DNA of 64,000 bases from Paenarthrobacter sp. GOM3 (GTDB taxonomy: Bacteria; Actinomycetota; Actinomycetes; Actinomycetales; Micrococcaceae): NCBI RefSeq assembly GCF_018215265.2, contig NZ_CP136562.1:1178001-1242000 (forward strand). The letters are read 5' to 3'. Numbering within the stretch: position 1 is the first letter of the stretch; each line of letters starts with the position of its first letter. Of the stretch, positions 14,906-61,925 are shown one piece after another. The notes below the pieces were generated by a model. It was given only the letters and a program-made list of their open reading frames with translations, ran no database searches and was not told the DNA's origin. Made by a program: the position numbers and the translations under genes.

Positions 14906-14943
14906 AAAAAGCAGGGCCGGTCAGTGACCGGCCCTGCTTTTTT
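14906..14943 (+). terminator. cspA terminator
   Basis: Stem GCAGGGCCGGTCA / TGACCGGCCCTGC, flanked by an A-run before and a T-run after, so it can also serve the convergent ABC operon. The same terminator recurs at about 17710. Confidence 0.9.
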
Positions 14944-17635: not shown

Positions 17636-17755
17636 GCTCACTACTCTCCGATCAACTCCTCGGCGTACCGTTCCGTCGAAGAAGACCAGAAGGGTTCCTT
17701 CGACCGAGAAGCAGGGCCGGTCACGGACCGGCCCTGCTTTTTGTCTGCCTAAGTG
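17636..17755 (+). pseudogene. cspA remnant with its terminator
   Basis: From GCTCACTACTCT onward the sequence follows cspA codons of the central region (14772-14850), with frame-breaking changes. It then jumps into the cspA terminator at a shared GCAGGGCC and continues through the T-run and the TTGTCTGCC flank. The start and N-terminal third are missing, so it is not translated as a cold shock protein. Confidence 0.8.
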
Positions 17756-35780: not shown

Positions 35781-36368
35781 ATGCGCATTGTTGTCCTCGT
35801 CTCCGGTACCGGTTCCAATCTTCAGGCTGTCATCGACGCCGTGAAGTCGGGTGAACTGGACGTCGAGATCGCCGCTGTGGGCGCGGACCGGCCCGACACG
35901 TACGGCGTGGAGCGTTCCGACGAAGCGGGCATCGAGACGTTCGTGGTGAACTTCAACTCCTTCGAAACCCGCGCGGAGTGGGACGCTGCCCTGCGCGACA
36001 AGGTGCTTTCCTACAGCCCGGACGTGGTGGTTTCCTCCGGATTCATGAGGATCGTCAGCGCCGACTTCATCGATGCCTTCGGTGGCAAGTACGTCAACAC
36101 CCACCCTGCCTTGCTCCCGTCCTTCCCTGGCGCCCACGGTGTCCGCGACGCGATGGCCTACGGTGTGAAAGTCACCGGCTGCACCGTCCACTGGGCCGAC
36201 GCCGGCGTGGACACGGGCCCCATCATCGCCCAGGAAGCCGTCTCTGTGCTTCCGGATGACACCGAAGAAACCCTGCACGAGCGCATCAAGATCGTGGAGC
36301 GCCGCCTGCTGGTCCAAACCCTCGCAGACCTCGCCGCCGCCCCCTCACCCGCGCCCGCACCCAACTAG
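35781..36368 (+). CDS. purN: Phosphoribosylglycinamide formyltransferase
   Basis: 195-residue enzyme of purine synthesis transferring formyl from 10-formyl-THF to GAR. VLVSGTGSNLQAVIDAV at the N terminus binds the phosphate. The catalytic signature VNTHPALLPSFPGAHG carries the Asn-His pair, and VDTGPIIAQEAV supplies the Asp. Length is standard. Its TAG stop lies inside the palindromic repeat at 36361, so the last residues (APAPN) come partly from the repeat. purH, usually adjacent in actinobacteria, is 6 kb downstream. Confidence 0.96.
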   Translation: MRIVVLVSGTGSNLQAVIDAVKSGELDVEIAAVGADRPDTYGVERSDEAGIETFVVNFNSFETRAEWDAALRDKVLSYSPDVVVSSGFMRIVSADFIDAFGGKYVNTHPALLPSFPGAHGVRDAMAYGVKVTGCTVHWADAGVDTGPIIAQEAVSVLPDDTEETLHERIKIVERRLLVQTLADLAAAPSPAPAPN

Positions 36369-36424
36369 GGGACAGATAACGCCCGTCTGAGCCCCCAATG
36401 GAGCCGGAGCTGTCCCCCAGTTTC
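36361..36424. repeat. Palindromic repeat family A, element 1
   Basis: Left arm CCAACTAGGGGACAG at 36361-36375, right arm CTGTCCCCCAGTTT at 36410-36423, about 63 bases in all. It provides the purN stop codon and stands before the nuclease-like gene at 36489. Confidence 0.75.
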
Positions 36425-36488
36425 CCGTTGTGGCCCTGGGCCTGTGGATAACGCCCCACGCACTCGGCACTTTTGCCAGCATGGGCTC

Positions 36489-37424
36489 ATGAAGATCCCC
36501 AAGCCGCTGCCGCTGAACTTGGCTTCCGCGCCGTTCACCAGTCAGGAAGCGCTCGACGCCGGTGTATCAGTTGGGCGCCTGAAGTACAGAGACTTGGAAA
36601 TACCGAGCCGGCAGATCCGCGTTCCCCACACAGGCGGAGAAACGTCGCTCGCTGATCGTGCCCGGCCCCTGACTTTGGTGACCCGGTTCTCCGCGGCTTC
36701 GCATGCCACGGCCTTCCTGCTCTGGAAATTCCCCGGATTCCTTCCCAAGAGCCATGAACCAGGCATTCACATTTCAAGGCCCGACACACTGGGGCGAGTA
36801 CGCCGCAGGGGTGTCATTGCGCACAAGGGACAATTCTTCGAGGACGAAATCACCACGCTCAACGGACTTTTCGTTACCAGTCGAGCCCGGACATGGCTGG
36901 ACTGCTCCCGGAAGATGGACATCGACGAAATCACTGTAGTGGCCGATCATTTGCTCCGTATTCCGAGACCGGAATTCGAAGACCGATCGGAGCCATACTG
37001 CACCACGGATAGCCTTGAAGAGATGCTGGACCGACACTGGGGGACACCGGGAATCCGCAAGGCCCGCCTCGCCTTGGAGCAGGCGGTAGTGGGTGCCGAT
37101 TCCGCTCCTGAGACGCGACTGAGGCTAGCACTGGAGCGGGCTGGGCTGCCCACGGCGCAAGTCAACGTTCGTACGGAACTGGGTCCCGGCGTCGTACGTC
37201 AACCTGATCTCGGCTATCGCGAGTGGCGGGTCGGCGTCGAATACGAGGGGGAGGGGCATTCGGACCCGGAGCAAATCATCAGGGACATTGCCCGCGAAGA
37301 GGATTACAGCCGCGCGGGGTGGATCCTGGTTCGGATCTCGAAGCGGCATATGTCCACGGGCGCAGTCACCGCGGTGCGCAAGGTGCGGCGGGCGCTGGAA
37401 CAACAAGGGTGGCCATCCAACTAG
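36489..37424 (+). CDS. DUF559-like / Vsr-fold nuclease-like protein (AbiEi-like N terminus)
   Basis: 311-residue protein. The N-terminal half resembles AbiEi-type domains (SQEALDAGVSVGRLKYRDLEIPSRQIRV). The C-terminal 100 residues look like a DUF559/Vsr endonuclease fold: VVRQPDLGYREWRVGVEYEGEGH with Asp and Glu in the usual metal-site pattern, then RDIAREEDYSRAGWILVRIS. Paralogue of 41107-42036. Its TAG stop lies in the second family A repeat, and an element also stands before it. ATG 36489 is preferred over 36444. Activity is unproven. Confidence 0.72.
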   Translation: MKIPKPLPLNLASAPFTSQEALDAGVSVGRLKYRDLEIPSRQIRVPHTGGETSLADRARPLTLVTRFSAASHATAFLLWKFPGFLPKSHEPGIHISRPDTLGRVRRRGVIAHKGQFFEDEITTLNGLFVTSRARTWLDCSRKMDIDEITVVADHLLRIPRPEFEDRSEPYCTTDSLEEMLDRHWGTPGIRKARLALEQAVVGADSAPETRLRLALERAGLPTAQVNVRTELGPGVVRQPDLGYREWRVGVEYEGEGHSDPEQIIRDIAREEDYSRAGWILVRISKRHMSTGAVTAVRKVRRALEQQGWPSN

Positions 37425-37481
37425 GGGACAGCAAACGTCCTTTTGGGCACTCAGTAGAGCAATAGCTGTCCCCTAGTTGGG
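37417..37481. repeat. Palindromic repeat family A, element 2
   Basis: Perfect 15-bp arms CCAACTAGGGGACAG (37417-37431) and CTGTCCCCTAGTTGG (37466-37480), total 65 bases. It supplies the stop of the nuclease-like gene and lies just before the convergent MFS gene. Confidence 0.8.
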
Positions 37482-37495
37482 TAAGCCGGGGCAGG

Positions 37496-38848
37496 CTAAT
37501 CGAGGGTGCGCTGCTTGGTTTCCGGCGCGAAGAACGCCATCCACAGCACGGAGACAAGCACCAAGCCGCCGGCAAGGGCAAACGACGTCGCCAACCCAAA
37601 CTCCGGCCAGAAGAACGACGCAAACACCAGGGGCCCAAAACCCGCGCCGATGCGGGAGAACGTCGAAGCCCAACCGAAACCGGAGCCGCGAAGCTCGGTC
37701 GGATACAGCTCGGACACGTAGGCGTACAGCACCGGTATGGCCACCTGGACCACGAAACCGAACACCAGCAGCCAGAACACCGCAGCCGAGGGAACGTCCA
37801 CCACAAGCGCCACGATCACCAGTGTCACCGCGGACAAGGGACCGGTGATGGCCAGGATCCACTTGCGGCCCACCCGCTCCACCAGCAGCGCAGCAACCAC
37901 CACGCCCAAAAGCCCGACGGCGGCCATACCCGCCGTCGTGACGAACGCCTTGTATTCCTCGAACCCGGCGCCGATGAGTATCCGAGGCATCCAGGTCAGC
38001 GACAGGTAGTAGACAAGAAGTACGGAGAAGAACAAGGCCCAGGCGGTGGTGGTGATCTTCCAGTTGAACTGCCAGATCTTTTGAAGTTGCGTCCACGCGC
38101 TGCCGGCCGAGAGCCGTGGTGCGGCCTGCGGCTCCGGCAAACTGTAGGCCCGCGGCTCGGCACCCGTGGCGTCGACCAAGCCGTCGATGACAGCCGCAGC
38201 TTCAGCACGCCGGCCCTTGCGGATCAGGAACAACGGCGACTCGGGGACTGATCGGCGCACCCAGAAGACCAGCAACGCGGGCAGCACCATGATCAGCATG
38301 GTGAGCCGCCAGTCGCCGAAAGCTGCCACGAGCCACGCAGACAGGAAACCACACAGCGCCGCGCCAACGGGCCACCAGCCATCCATGGCCGTGAGGACTT
38401 TGCCTCTTTGCTTGCGTGGCGTGAACTCACCCACCAGGGCGTAGTCAACGGGGATGCAGCCACCCAGGCCGAATCCAGCCATGAAACGGAAAATGCAGAA
38501 CCATACGATGTCCGGTGAAAACGCGCCAAGAACCGTGAAGATGCTGAAGATCAGGAGGGTGGCCGTGAAAGCCTTCCGGCGCCCGATGGTGTCGGCAATC
38601 GTGCCCCACGCGAACGCACCCACAGCCATGCCGATCAGGTTGGCCGTCCCAATCCAGGCAGCGTCAGCGGGTTGCAGGGACCAGTGCTTGGACAGCAACG
38701 GGATCAGGATGCCGTTAAGCGTCACGTCCCAGGCGTCGAACATGAATCCAAGGCCGCCGATGACGAAGATCTTGCCTTGGACCTTCCACCGCCACGGCAG
38801 TTCCTGCACCACTTGTTCGCCGCTGGGCACGGTTGTGTACGTATTCAT
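37496..38848 (-). CDS. MFS transporter, probably for amino sugars
   Basis: 450-residue 12-helix major facilitator. The motif A loop is GTIADTIGRRKAFTATLL. RFMAGFGLGGCIPVDYALVGEFTPRKQRG and ELYPTELRGSGFGWA are typical of the metabolite:H+ symporter/SV2-like group. ATG 38848 has AGGAGG five bases upstream. It is the last gene of a minus-strand operon with a BadF-type kinase and the MurNAc-6-phosphate etherase, so import of MurNAc or a related cell wall sugar is the likely job (inference from context). Confidence 0.82.
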   Translation of the reverse strand: MNTYTTVPSGEQVVQELPWRWKVQGKIFVIGGLGFMFDAWDVTLNGILIPLLSKHWSLQPADAAWIGTANLIGMAVGAFAWGTIADTIGRRKAFTATLLIFSIFTVLGAFSPDIVWFCIFRFMAGFGLGGCIPVDYALVGEFTPRKQRGKVLTAMDGWWPVGAALCGFLSAWLVAAFGDWRLTMLIMVLPALLVFWVRRSVPESPLFLIRKGRRAEAAAVIDGLVDATGAEPRAYSLPEPQAAPRLSAGSAWTQLQKIWQFNWKITTTAWALFFSVLLVYYLSLTWMPRILIGAGFEEYKAFVTTAGMAAVGLLGVVVAALLVERVGRKWILAITGPLSAVTLVIVALVVDVPSAAVFWLLVFGFVVQVAIPVLYAYVSELYPTELRGSGFGWASTFSRIGAGFGPLVFASFFWPEFGLATSFALAGGLVLVSVLWMAFFAPETKQRTLD

Positions 38849-38910
38849 AGGGCCTCCTGCATGCAACTTTAGGCCCTGCCGGCCAACACCTTAGGCCGTG
38901 CCGGCCAACG

Positions 38911-39861
38911 TTACTTCTGGTTCTCGATTGCCCTGCGCAGGAAACCGCCCGCTTCCTCAAGCGCGCCCTTCGCCGCGGAGGCTTCGATGCCCGTGAGGAG
39001 CACCAGAATTGCTGCCTTAACGGAGCCGCCAACGGAGTCCAACGCCGCAGCCGCTTCCTGCGCCGAAACGCCGGTGGCGTGCTGCACGGTCCGCTGCGAC
39101 CGTGCAAGCAGCTTCTCGTTCGTGGCACGCAGATCAACCATGAGGTTCCCGTACGTCTTGCCGAGCTTCACCATCACCAACGTGCTGATCATGTTGAGGA
39201 CAAGTTTCTGGGCAGTGCCCGAGTTCAGCCTGGTTGAGCCAGCGATGAACTCCGGACCCACGACAACCTCGATCGCAGCATCGGCCACATGGCTCACTGC
39301 CGAACCCTTGTTGCACGCCAGCGACGCCGTAAACGCACCGCGCTTCCGTGCCTCCTCAAGCGCGCCGATCACGTACGGCGTCCTCCCGGAGGCAGTAATA
39401 CCGACGACGGCGTCCGCTTCGGTCACGCTGATATCGTGCAGGTCGCGCGCGCCGGCAGTTGCGTTGTCCTCGGCGTACTCCACCGGGTGTTGGATCGCTT
39501 TGGTGCCCCCGGCGATCAGTCCGACCACCAGACCCGGCGGCGTGCCGAACGTTGGCGGGCACTCGCTCGCGTCGAGCACACCCAGCCGACCGGCCGTTCC
39601 GGCGCCCACATACAAAAGGCGGCCACCGCGCTGGAGTCGCTCCGCAACGGCGTCGACCGTTTGGACAATCGCGGGACTGGCCGCTTCAACGGCAGCGTGC
39701 ACCCCTGCAGTGTGCGCAAGCATAGCGGCCACGAGTTCCTCGGTGCCCAGGATGTCCAGGTTCTCCAGGCCCTCGGCGGTCGCTTCGGTCTGTAATCCGG
39801 CAAGTTCCGTGCGCAGGCCCGCAAGTTTGTCGGCGTCAGTCGGGCCAGTTTGTTCCGTCAC
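38911..39861 (-). CDS. murQ: N-acetylmuramic acid 6-phosphate etherase
   Basis: 316-residue SIS-domain lyase that removes lactate from MurNAc-6-phosphate to give GlcNAc-6-phosphate in cell wall recycling. LLYVGAGTAGRLGVLDASECPPTFG is the family signature; VGITASGRTPYVIGALEEA and GPEFIAGSTRLNSGTAQKLVLNM are equally diagnostic. The GTG start at 39861 lies inside the end of the upstream kinase gene (26-base overlap). Confidence 0.96.
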   Translation of the reverse strand: MTEQTGPTDADKLAGLRTELAGLQTEATAEGLENLDILGTEELVAAMLAHTAGVHAAVEAASPAIVQTVDAVAERLQRGGRLLYVGAGTAGRLGVLDASECPPTFGTPPGLVVGLIAGGTKAIQHPVEYAEDNATAGARDLHDISVTEADAVVGITASGRTPYVIGALEEARKRGAFTASLACNKGSAVSHVADAAIEVVVGPEFIAGSTRLNSGTAQKLVLNMISTLVMVKLGKTYGNLMVDLRATNEKLLARSQRTVQHATGVSAQEAAAALDSVGGSVKAAILVLLTGIEASAAKGALEEAGGFLRRAIENQK

Positions 39862-40786
39862 GGTGGATGTACCTTTCCTGGATGAGCCCGCGGCGCGTCG
39901 CAGCGAGGGCAGCACCGTCCAAGCCATCGCCCAGCGGGACCACCACCTCAATCCCAGCCGAAGCGAGGGACTTGCGCAAGAGCGCCGCGAAGAAGTCCGA
40001 TCCCACCACTCCGCCCAGCAGCGCCACGCGCTGTTTGCTGCCCGCATCGTCGCCGGCGGCTCGTTGCACCGTCGCCGTCAGGATGCGGCACGCCTCACCA
40101 ACGATGTTAAGTGCGACGGCGTCACCCGCCTCCGCTGCCTGCAGAACCAGCGGTGCGAAACGGGCCATCGCCCGGTACGGGTTCTCCTGTTCGGCAAGCC
40201 AGCCCGGGAGCATTTCCGGGGACTCGACCAGAGCGCCAGCCGCGGCCGACAACGATGTGGCCGGGCCGCCGTCGTGCGCTTCGAGAACTGCCTGAAGACC
40301 CTGCTGGCCTATCCAGCGGCCGCTGCCGCGATCGCCGAGATAGGGGCCCCAGCCGTCGGCCCGGTGGAGGACCCCCAACTCGTCGAAGCGGAAAGCGACG
40401 GCACCGGTGCCCACGATCAACGCGGTGCCAGGGGCGCCCTGGAGCGCGCCGAGTTGGGCGGCGGTGGCATCGGAGAGGACCGCTGCCGGGACGCCGAAAC
40501 GTTGGGACAACATGGTGGCGAGCTCCTGCGATTTCTTTGCAGAGGCCTCGACGCCAGCCACGGCAGCACCGATGCCCGTGACCGTTGTGATGGGGAGGCC
40601 CGGCGGAAGCAGTGCAACGGTCTCTAGCAGGAGATCGAACGCGAGGGTAGGGCCGTTGTCTACATGCACTCCCGGGAACCCCTGCCGGTCCGCGGCACCC
40701 AGCAACTCCGAACCACGGCGCAACTCCACGCGGCACCGGCTCTTCCCTATATCGGCAACAAGAACGACATCCTGGGGGTCTTCCAT
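39836..40786 (-). CDS. BadF/BadG-type N-acetyl amino sugar kinase (MurK/NagK-like)
   Basis: 316-residue sugar kinase of the BcrAD/BadFG ATPase fold. The phosphate-1 motif is VVLVADIGKSRCRVELRRG, the phosphate-2 segment is GTALIVGTGAVAFRF with GPYLGDRGSGRWIG following, and VALLGGVVGSDFF is the adenosine region. With murQ directly downstream it most likely phosphorylates MurNAc and/or GlcNAc, as MurK does. First gene of the operon; ATG 40786. Confidence 0.88.
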   Translation of the reverse strand: MEDPQDVVLVADIGKSRCRVELRRGSELLGAADRQGFPGVHVDNGPTLAFDLLLETVALLPPGLPITTVTGIGAAVAGVEASAKKSQELATMLSQRFGVPAAVLSDATAAQLGALQGAPGTALIVGTGAVAFRFDELGVLHRADGWGPYLGDRGSGRWIGQQGLQAVLEAHDGGPATSLSAAAGALVESPEMLPGWLAEQENPYRAMARFAPLVLQAAEAGDAVALNIVGEACRILTATVQRAAGDDAGSKQRVALLGGVVGSDFFAALLRKSLASAGIEVVVPLGDGLDGAALAATRRGLIQERYIHRDGTNWPD

Positions 40787-40798
40787 GGCACAACCCTA

Positions 40799-41011
40799 TG
40801 TTGCGGGGCCTGATCTGCAGGGTTTGGGTCGCGCTGAGCGTGCAGAGTGGGCCTCGCAGTGCGTGGGCTCTCCGTTGTGAGGCCTGCTTTGCGGGGTATG
40901 GGTCGCGCTTGGCGTGCAGAGTGGGCCTCGCAGTGCGTGGGCTCTCCGTTGCTGGGCCTGATTTGCAGGGTTTGGGGCGCGCTGAGCGTGCAGAGTGGGC
41001 CTCGCAACGCG
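40799..41011. repeat. Palindromic repeat family B, locus 1 (three tandem units of 74 bp)
   Basis: Three units start near 40800, 40874 and 40948. Each opens GTTGCGGGGCCTG or a variant, has TTTGCAGGGT inside, and closes GTGCAGAGTGGGCCTCGCA plus ACGC or GTGC. Ends are inverted (GCGTTGCGGGGCC against GGCCTCGCAACGC). Lies between the kinase and the nuclease-like gene at 41107. Confidence 0.75.
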
Positions 41012-41106
41012 GGCGCGACTTCTGTGGAGGAACAGTCACAGTGCCCCTCAGGGCCAAATCTGTGGATAACAGAACGCCGCTGACCGATTCCGGCAAGCAT
41101 GGTCCA

Positions 41107-42036
41107 ATGCGGAAACCCATGCCTCTGCCGTCGGAGATCGACCCGGCCGGCTTCCTTGTCAGAGATGCGTACGCGGCTGGCATGCCACGCGGGAGGCTGC
41201 AGTCGGCAGGCCTGGTCACACCCAGCCGGGGTATCAGGCTTAACCGAAGCGATAGTCCCAATGTGGCGCTACTTGCACGTCTGCACACGGCCGTCACGCC
41301 CAGATGCGCGGTCAGCCATGTGACCTCTGCGCTCCTCTGGTCGATCCCGCTTCCGATATATCTGGAGGAAGAGGGCAACAACGGCGTTATTCATGTGACG
41401 CGACGACACGAGATTGGCAGGGTAAAGCGACGCGGTGTGGTGGGTCATCGGGCTCCGCTCTTGGCCAAGGATGTTCGTGTGCTGAACGGGGTCCAGCTGA
41501 CGTCGCCCGAGTGGACCTGGTTGGATTTGGCCCGGCATATGGGGCGGTCTTCGCTGGTGGCTGCCGGCGACTTTTTGTTGGCTCGGGAGAATCCGTTGTC
41601 CTCGATCGAGGCGATCCAGGAAGTCATCGACCGGCGACCGAAGGTCAAGGGAATCAGGATGGCCCGGGAGATACTGCCGTTGCTCCGCGTTGGGGTCGAC
41701 TCCCCGCAGGAATCCCGGCTGCGGTTGAAAATCGTCGACGCCGGTCTGCCGGAGCCAGCAGTCACCCAACCCATCTTCGATGAACGCGGGCGGTATGTAT
41801 CCACGCCGGACCTCCAGTACAAGGAGTACAAAATCGCCATGGAGTATGAGGGGGACCATCATCGCTCCGACCCCGTGCAGTGGGGAAAAGACATCGAACG
41901 TGACGACCGGCTTCGAGCTATGGGCTGGATCGTGCTCAGGTTCTCCGATGTCCAGATGAAAGGTGGATGGGCCAACGCCGAACGTAAGGTGCGCGATGCG
42001 TTGGTGTCGCGCGGGTGGCGAGGCCCGGTGTCGTAA
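41107..42036 (+). CDS. DUF559-like / Vsr-fold nuclease-like protein, paralogue of 36489-37424
   Basis: 309-residue protein with the same two-part layout as its paralogue. The N-terminal AbiEi-like part has AYAAGMPRGRLQSAGLVTPSRGIRL and GRVKRRGVVGHRAPL. The C-terminal nuclease-like part has TPDLQYKEYKIAMEYEGDHHRSD with Asp-Gln-Glu-type residues, then ERDDRLRAMGWIVLRFS. ATG 41107. Tandem family B repeats flank it on both sides. Possible structure-specific endonuclease or orphan AbiEi-type antitoxin; not distinguishable here. Confidence 0.72.
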   Translation: MRKPMPLPSEIDPAGFLVRDAYAAGMPRGRLQSAGLVTPSRGIRLNRSDSPNVALLARLHTAVTPRCAVSHVTSALLWSIPLPIYLEEEGNNGVIHVTRRHEIGRVKRRGVVGHRAPLLAKDVRVLNGVQLTSPEWTWLDLARHMGRSSLVAAGDFLLARENPLSSIEAIQEVIDRRPKVKGIRMAREILPLLRVGVDSPQESRLRLKIVDAGLPEPAVTQPIFDERGRYVSTPDLQYKEYKIAMEYEGDHHRSDPVQWGKDIERDDRLRAMGWIVLRFSDVQMKGGWANAERKVRDALVSRGWRGPVS

Positions 42037-42049
42037 TTCTCGCGCGAGG

Positions 42050-42232
42050 GTTGCCCTGCGGAGTGGGCCTCGCAACGCAGGGGCCCCGACTTGTGGGCCT
42101 GGTGTGCAGGGAATGGGCGGGGTAACCCTGTGGAGTGGGCCTCGCAACGCAAGGGCCCCGACTTGTGGGGCCTGGTGTGCACGGAATGGGGCGGGGTAAC
42201 CCTGCGGAGTGGGCCTCGCAACGCAAGAGCCC
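42050..42232. repeat. Palindromic repeat family B, locus 2 (about 2.6 tandem units of 73 bp)
   Basis: GAGTGGGCCTCGCAACGCA recurs at 42061, 42133 and 42207 (periods 72 and 74). Between copies stand CCCCGACTTGTGGG, GCCTGGTGTGCA and GGGGTAACCCTG. It fills most of the gap between the nuclease-like gene and purH. Confidence 0.75.
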
Positions 42233-48909: not shown

Positions 48910-48976
48910 CCCAACTGGGTAGCAGCAGAGCGCGTTTTGAGAGCTGAAAAACGCGCTCTGCTGCTACTCAGTTGGG
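48910..48976. repeat. Long palindrome related to repeat family A
   Basis: 29-bp arms with a single mismatch: left 48910-48938 (begins CCCAACTGGGTAGCAGC, ends GCGCGTTTT), right 48948-48976, loop of nine bases. Terminal CCAACT and CAG match 11 of 15 positions of the family A arm. It lies between divergent genes, so it is not a gene terminator. Confidence 0.75.
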
Positions 48977-61858: not shown

Positions 61859-61925
61859 TGCGTTGCGGGGCCTGGTTTGCAGGGTATGTTCGCCCCATAG
61901 CGTGCAGAGTGGGCCTCACAACGCG
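61859..61925. repeat. Palindromic repeat family B, solitary unit
   Basis: One 67-bp unit: GCGTTGCGGGGCCTG at the left end, TTTGCAGGGTATG inside, GTGCAGAGTGGGCCTCACAACGC at the right end. Ends are inverted with two mismatches. Same family as 40799 and 42050. The gap 61741-62072 otherwise holds the ROK promoter and the nitrilase leader. Confidence 0.75.

Follow-up and report, generated by a model that had tools for sequence, protein, structure and literature searches.

Predicted AbiEi-like/EDxHD nuclease genes of the Arthrobacter group are usually bracketed by repeats of their own family and may drive dispersed palindromes

The window analyzed here, a 64,000-nucleotide stretch of Paenarthrobacter sp. 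GOM3 (contig NZ_CP136562.1, positions 1,178,001 to 1,242,000), carries two paralogous nuclease-like genes, gene A and gene B, each lying between copies of its own family of palindromic repeats (Table 1). Their proteins share 39% identity over nearly full length (E = 4e-59 in a pairwise protein comparison). The repeat unit measures 64 bp in family A and about 59 bp in family B, of which gene B has three units upstream and approximately 2.5 downstream; the window A palindromes begin CCAACT and finish AGTTGG or AGTTTC, while the B units begin TTG. The purN-like formyltransferase gene upstream of gene A (35781-36368) takes its stop codon from the CTAG of the left A palindrome, and the stop codon of gene A falls within the right one, whose CTAG supplies it. 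With up to two mismatches, the A half-site AACTAGGGGACAG occurs four times in the window, always inside the two elements flanking gene A, and shuffled sequences contained a mean of 1.1 and reached four in 2 of 100 cases. The B half-site occurs seven times, a number reached in 0 of 100 shuffles, the seventh being the solitary B element. Hairpin strength is uneven, in that the solitary B element and one downstream B unit are weak as hairpins. The arm type of the solitary A-type element at 48910 also occurs in relatives. The initial annotation had described both bracketed arrangements as well as solitary B and A-like elements away from the genes, and all of these were recovered.

Table 1. Genes, palindromes, and DnaA-box-like motifs of the two nuclease loci and solitary palindromes (window coordinates; z, DNA-fold z value)
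Feature	Position	Strand	Remarks
Left family A palindrome	36361..36424		64 bp, imperfect right arm, z -2.5
DnaA-box-like 9-mer TGTGGATAA (reverse complement TTATCCACA)	36443..36451	+	46 nt before gene A start codon
Clade-A nuclease gene (gene A)	36489..37424	+	311 aa; predicted AbiEi-like residues 2-200, EDxHD (Vsr-like) nuclease about 203-308
Right family A palindrome	37417..37480		64 bp, 16-bp perfect arms, z -6.3
Family B palindrome unit 1, upstream of paralogue	40801..40859		Repeat match, z -3.9
Family B palindrome unit 2, upstream of paralogue	40875..40933		Repeat match, z -3.4
Family B palindrome unit 3, upstream of paralogue	40949..41007		Repeat match
TGTGGATAA box of paralogue	41061..41069	+	46 nt before gene B start codon
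Paralogous nuclease gene, family B (gene B)	41107..42036	+	309 aa, 39% identical to gene A
Family B half unit, downstream of paralogue	42050..42077		Repeat match
Family B palindrome unit, downstream of paralogue	42091..42149		Repeat match, z -1.5 (weak)
Family B palindrome unit, downstream of paralogue	42163..42223		Repeat match
Solitary A-type palindrome, other arm type GGGTAGCAG	48910..48976		Near-perfect 67-nt hairpin, z -12.2
Solitary family B element	61863..61922		Repeat match, z -1.3 (weak hairpin)

The protein is predicted to consist of an AbiEi-like part fused to a nuclease of the Vsr/I-Bth0305I (EDxHD) type. A profile search of solved-structure sequences returned three matches at E values up to 1, the best being 3hrl at 0.04 and the other two unrelated by name; a fold comparison was therefore needed. 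Comparison of the predicted protein revealed the catalytic domain of the EDxHD homing-endonuclease fold and matched the N-terminal half to an AbiEi-type fold (root mean square deviation, 4.9). PADLOC also gave AbiEi matches to the proteins, that of the B protein reaching only E = 1.5e-4. The candidate EDxHD residues E208, D240, H257, and D266 are invariant in 35/35 sequences of set A2 and 16/16 of set A1, while residue 251 in A2 is E in 21, Q in 12, and D in 2. The Vsr-like nuclease end that the initial annotation had read from the sequence is thus borne out by the fold and by the invariant residues. In Pfam, where scores were mostly under the curated cut-offs, neither window protein had an HUH or other transposase domain; this, together with the nuclease and AbiEi-like folds, rules out membership in the HUH-type transposases associated with repetitive extragenic palindromes (REPs), the REP-associated tyrosine transposases (RAYTs). 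Named homologues of the A protein at 75 to 84% identity belong to Paenarthrobacter and Arthrobacter. A third paralogue in the same genome (G000:C1:3496449; 41% identity) is flanked, by eye, by short tandem units of ~32 bp whose orientation is opposite on the two sides. Three more distant homologues at own-genome loci L004 to L006 (29 to 38% identity over part of the protein) have hairpins nearby.

We carried the flank comparison to homologues in other genomes. A first draw comprised 24 other genomes of the genus, each with 2 to 8 matches, some of them pieces; of 93 gene records, 84 were tested after exclusion of five out-of-genus records and the pieces of two split genes. Upstream and downstream flanks were compared by local alignment score with a threshold of 20, using genes from the same loci as controls. 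A repeat common to both flanks was found for 68/84 homologues versus 2/185 control genes, and at a score of at least 25 for 61/84 versus 0/185; ungapped hairpins scoring at least 12 on both sides were present at 37/84 versus 3/185. A second set, drawn from the best 80 of 294 loci (mostly Arthrobacter, Paenarthrobacter, Pseudarthrobacter, and Sinomonas) with 5 duplicates removed, gave a shared flank repeat for 62/75 homologues and 0/63 controls. Where the flanks are palindromic, the left palindrome typically ends ~48 to 70 bp ahead of the start codon, with the right one starting at most ~15 bp from the stop codon. A homologue's own downstream flank was the top match of its upstream flank in only 2/13 (A), 11/29 (C), 14/28 (B/other), and 2/14 (D) cases. 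Nuclease genes of the Arthrobacter group therefore mostly lie between copies of a repeat belonging to their own family, in many cases a palindrome of ~60 bases. The idea that homologues would generally carry flanking palindromes accordingly stands for the most part, with the qualification that many C-clade members have short tandem units instead of hairpins. Two records titled as the Firmicute Sporosarcina beigongshangi REN13 (L241 and L307) contain homologues at 57% and 36% identity, and this assembly may be mislabelled or contaminated.

Genome-wide counts were made for families A and D, with elements chosen by arm pattern and, for family A, an exact pattern in both arms. The own genome has the A half-site at 13 places, of which 11 lack the gene, and 24 half-sites at up to one mismatch against 7 for a reversed control pattern. 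In the first draw, 13 genomes with an intact clade-A gene had A elements at 3 to 78 places and 11 without it at 0 to 3; among 36 further genomes of the genus, the corresponding figures were 1 to 52 in 20 with the gene and 0 to 7 in 14 without. Pooled, 33 genomes with the gene had a median of 13 (range, 1 to 78) and 25 without it a median of 1 (0 to 7), a contrast with P = 3e-10, not corrected for phylogeny. Three genomes retaining only a remnant of the clade-A gene had 8, 8, and 11 elements. The A pattern was absent from 14 genomes of other families, and its reversed control yielded no element. Clade D, at ~44% identity to A, is accompanied by 60-bp palindromes with different arms, with a median of 6 in 13 genomes having the gene and of 0 (maximum, 2) in 12 lacking it. 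The two families dissociate: six D-only genomes hold 0 to 3 A elements, and seven A-only genomes hold 0 to 2 D elements. For these two families, as had been proposed, palindrome counts follow the cognate gene, and the palindrome is scattered mainly in species with the matching gene.

These counts bear on the idea that the repeats are genuine REP/RAYT or insertion sequence (IS)-derived miniature elements, spread by an unseen transposase with the nuclease gene as a passenger. The layout and dispersal do resemble those of REPINs (REP doublets forming hairpins; PMC8049555, PMC2817692), and the genomes were not searched for other transposases. Nevertheless, bracketing by repeats is a property of the nuclease gene and not of the control genes, the palindrome family follows the nuclease clade, the window proteins contain no HUH transposase domain, and the window palindromes do not carry the GTAG end tag; we regard this explanation as improbable.

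Using rough gene calls, we determined the neighbours of 76 elements (75 solitary ones and one cassette arm, some of them orthologous between species). Four of the 76 overlap a coding-like frame. Both neighbours could be called for 54, which sit between convergent genes in 23 cases, tandem genes in 27, and divergent genes in 4. The convergent fraction, together with the two window A elements that touch gene ends, is what would be expected if the palindromes were terminators or mRNA-stabilising hairpins with only an incidental link to the nuclease. Against this, the listed elements are nearly fixed at 64 or 60 bp with few exceptions, no T run follows the window A elements, and one element lies directly after a separate hairpin that has its own T run. 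Moreover, co-occurrence with the cognate gene and the dissociation of families A and D rule out plain terminators as a full account. An incidental link is thus very unlikely, though the palindromes may act as terminators as a side effect.

The position of the gene itself was compared between species. By coordinates, the intact clade-A gene lies at the purN-like site in 27/33 genomes and elsewhere in 6. Among 30 loci in which the gap behind the purN-like gene was read, 15 match the nuclease gene, one of them as a remnant (G047), and the cassette gene is inverted at this site in G004 and G016. G012, G057, G068, and G062 (the last with divergent arms) have a solitary A or A-like palindrome and no gene, and G056, G022, and G065 have other repeats; no palindrome was visible in this gap in G048 (neighbouring gene at 94% identity), G053, G005, G013, G064, or G042. 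G052 and G069 are ~94% identical at the site, where G052 has 112 nt without a recognisable A palindrome in place of the cassette of G069. G012 and G022 share a second clade-A site with downstream DNA matching at 88%, and G046 has a second copy of the gene at a different place. The clade-A gene thus shows long residence with some relocation. Empty and occupied alleles both exist between species, and the palindromes persist beside the gene where it is present; at the site of G000:1270320, G048 and G053 carry a palindrome of another family at the identical position. The same residence bears on a further explanation, in which the locus is a phage-defence or type IV toxin-antitoxin module and the palindromes are scars left by recombination. 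The AbiEi-like N-terminal half would suit such a module, but an intact gene at one housekeeping site in 27/33 genomes does not, nor does the neighbourhood: the five neighbouring window genes, encoding a formyltransferase, an MFS transporter, a SIS-domain protein, a BadF-type ATPase, and an AICARFT/IMPCHase, include no AbiEii-type (DUF1814) toxin gene. We consider this explanation hardly credible.

Family A arms show concerted evolution, including at orthologous sites. In the own genome, arm position 10 is G in 26/26 arms of 13 A elements, whereas in elements of G023, G008, G054, and G072 it is T in 122/124 arms, the remaining two being one G and one C. The own-genome element at 48910, excluded from the 13 for its length, still has the T form when inspected by eye. 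At five orthologous sites the flanking sequence agrees on either side, and a sixth was established by alignment. At the five sites, own arms match their orthologues at 10.25/18 positions (G023, 4 pairs) and 12.5/18 (G008, 4 pairs), while agreement among the own genome's A elements is 17.1/18 arm positions. Since the arms are unlike their orthologues yet alike within the genome, they seem to have been rewritten together at already occupied sites. Such concerted change of dispersed copies is as much a sign of conversion or replacement at established sites as of new insertion.

Coevolution of a regulator with its operators is the main rival account of this pattern. Here, an AbiEi-like protein would bind scattered palindromes and control genes or the chromosome, and the arms would track its specificity by selection, with no cutting. 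AbiEi antitoxins bind inverted repeats (PMC7319586); the protein has the AbiEi-like fold and AbiEi matches, and its gene sits between two sites. Yet the four EDxHD residues, needless for a pure binder, are invariant in 35/35 sequences, and the divergent, promoter-type position accounts for only 4 of the 54 elements with both neighbours called. Furthermore, site occupancy differs between species, at one site together with the palindrome family, and it is difficult to see how selection alone would change so many sites in parallel. On balance, a regulator is unlikely, if less easily set aside than the accounts above.

The link between nuclease clade and palindrome family and the rewriting at scattered sites are explained most simply by a homing-type nuclease that acts as a dimer and binds through its AbiEi-like half. 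We therefore favour a system resembling REPIN/RAYT, in which the driver is a homing-type nuclease that would bind its palindrome as a dimer, and put its probability at roughly 0.62. Whereas association and concerted change are observations, we infer binding, dimerisation, cutting, the route of repair, and mobility. Each gene would encode a trans-acting endonuclease recognising one family of dispersed repeats, which are 60- to 64-bp palindromes in the best studied clades. The AbiEi-like half would probably bind the arms and the EDxHD domain cut or nick; with one subunit on each arm, the palindrome would serve as the target of a dimer. I-Bth0305I, a dimeric EDxHD enzyme, reportedly has a target of nearly 60 bp, and the 60- to 64-bp palindromes are comparable to the long dimer target of an EDxHD homing endonuclease in length only. 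Breaks at palindromes would be repaired from, or the palindromes replaced by, other copies, and the family could thereby spread, swap into existing palindrome sites, and become homogenised within each genome. The gene itself would travel as a palindrome-gene-palindrome cassette and stay at few sites for long periods.

Several observations weigh against a nuclease-driven system of this kind. Clean insertion with target duplication was sought at the purine-gene site (30 loci), at two solitary sites (7 and 5 relatives), and between G052 and G069, with no unambiguous junction found; the comparison of sites between species, which the initial annotation had suggested, thus yielded occupied and empty sites but not a clean insertion. 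G048 retains only a stub at one site. A classical homing gene interrupts its own target, whereas intact palindromes persist beside this one. A weak trace of descent survives in the inner stem (permutation P = 0.046, 0.10, and 0.24 in three genome pairs), and the structural match to AbiEi is loose. Gene and repeat also part company in places: G052 and G062 have no clade-A gene yet 7 A elements each, G060 has the gene but 1 element, G055 has the gene with 2, and G007 has a clade-D gene with 0 D elements by the pattern used. Five of the seven A elements of G052 are at sites shared with G069, a genome with the gene, as expected after recent gene loss. Finally, 16 of the 84 homologues fell under the flank threshold, strong ungapped hairpins flanked both sides of only 37, and many C-clade flanks are short tandem units, not hairpins.

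The DnaA-box-like 9-mer TGTGGATAA lies within 120 nt before the start codon in exact form in 140/158 homologues, and TGTGGA lies 45 to 50 nt before it in 153/158. In 59 loci of ~11 kb (644 kb), 48/51 occurrences of the 9-mer on either strand adjoin homologues. The own genome has 40 copies versus 4 of the reversed pattern, including copies at 1463 and 1645, just after an open reading frame starting at base 1 that we take to be dnaA. The reverse complement, TTATCCACA, equals the DnaA box consensus of Escherichia coli. That expression is tied to DnaA is a guess. In a more tentative extension of the nuclease-driven system, which we think somewhat less likely than not, it might act as a within-genome gene drive: the nuclease would cut ~60-bp dimer sites and force ectopic conversion, so that the dispersed population is rewritten to suit the current nuclease, new arm specificities sweep old sites, and rival families replace each other's palindromes. 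The REPIN way of life would then have arisen independently, without a transposase, through an AbiEi-homing-endonuclease fusion, possibly timed by DnaA.

Some arrangements suggest that genes other than the nuclease may be deleted or carried by the palindromes. Two A palindromes of G052 (L323/L324; C1:121453 and 123109) enclose a gene of ~1.6 kb for a membrane protein, glycosyltransferase-like by eye, and the counterpart in G069 (L318) apparently has one A palindrome. In G066, an interval of 1,652 bp separates two nearly identical A elements (3731910 and 3733562). Behind the purN-like gene in L133 (G044) and L143 (G059), the A palindrome start CCCAACTA runs, by eye, directly into foreign, IS-like sequence, so the palindromes may be insertion targets; ISPpu9 is reported to insert at REPs (PMC8450116). 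Elsewhere in the window, two terminator-like short-loop hairpins with common arms AAGCAGGGCCGGTC lie 2.8 kb apart at 14906-14942 and 17709-17739.

With the REP/REPIN-RAYT systems, as described in PMC2817692 and PMC8049555, the nuclease loci share two palindromes flanking a gene, solitary genomic copies, long vertical residence, apparent gene-repeat coevolution, and a diverse centre between conserved arms. The initial annotation had seen the layout of a repeat-mobilising system of REP/RAYT type; layout and association hold, and mobilisation is what we propose. Unlike RAYTs, HUH Y1 tyrosine transposases of the IS200/IS605 type, the protein here is an apparent AbiEi-like/EDxHD fusion; the palindromes span 60 to 64 bp, those of the window lack a GTAG tag, a genome can hold several paralogous genes, each with repeats of its own, and by record titles the system was found here in Arthrobacter, Paenarthrobacter, Pseudarthrobacter, and Sinomonas. 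PMC3733652 reports no obvious correlation of transposase genes with REP families, and to that extent the correlation of gene and palindrome seen here is not a defining REP feature. Unlike I-Bth0305I and Vsr, the gene is free-standing between housekeeping genes in the window, the protein has an AbiEi-like N-terminal half, and target-like palindromes occur at 1 to 78 places instead of one allelic site and stay next to the gene. Unlike the AbiEi antitoxins of type IV toxin-antitoxin systems, the AbiEi-like part is fused to a nuclease, with no partner toxin among five neighbours. We know of no dedicated bracketed nuclease gene in the hairpin elements of organelle genomes. Those elements are likewise dispersed, hairpin-forming, and selfish-looking (PMC2800124, PMC2670323). 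As the initial annotation had supposed, no description of a nuclease-palindrome pairing was found among the papers listed in searches of the open-access literature (PMC); the subscription literature was not searched. We regard this as a system of a new kind, REPIN/RAYT-like in its workings, being neither a RAYT by enzyme and tag nor an ordinary homing gene.

REP/RAYT has so far been the model for bacterial palindromes with a dedicated trans-acting gene, and an association of the same outline is now seen in Actinobacteria. Several gene-repeat pairs per genome and an unrelated homing-type enzyme make it a natural replicate on the question of why repeat populations persist; its paralogues also permit comparisons of specificity, gene, and repeat. 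The concerted change of arms among scattered copies offers a sign of bacterial molecular drive that can be measured, and AbiEi-EDxHD fusions may supply nucleases with different long targets.

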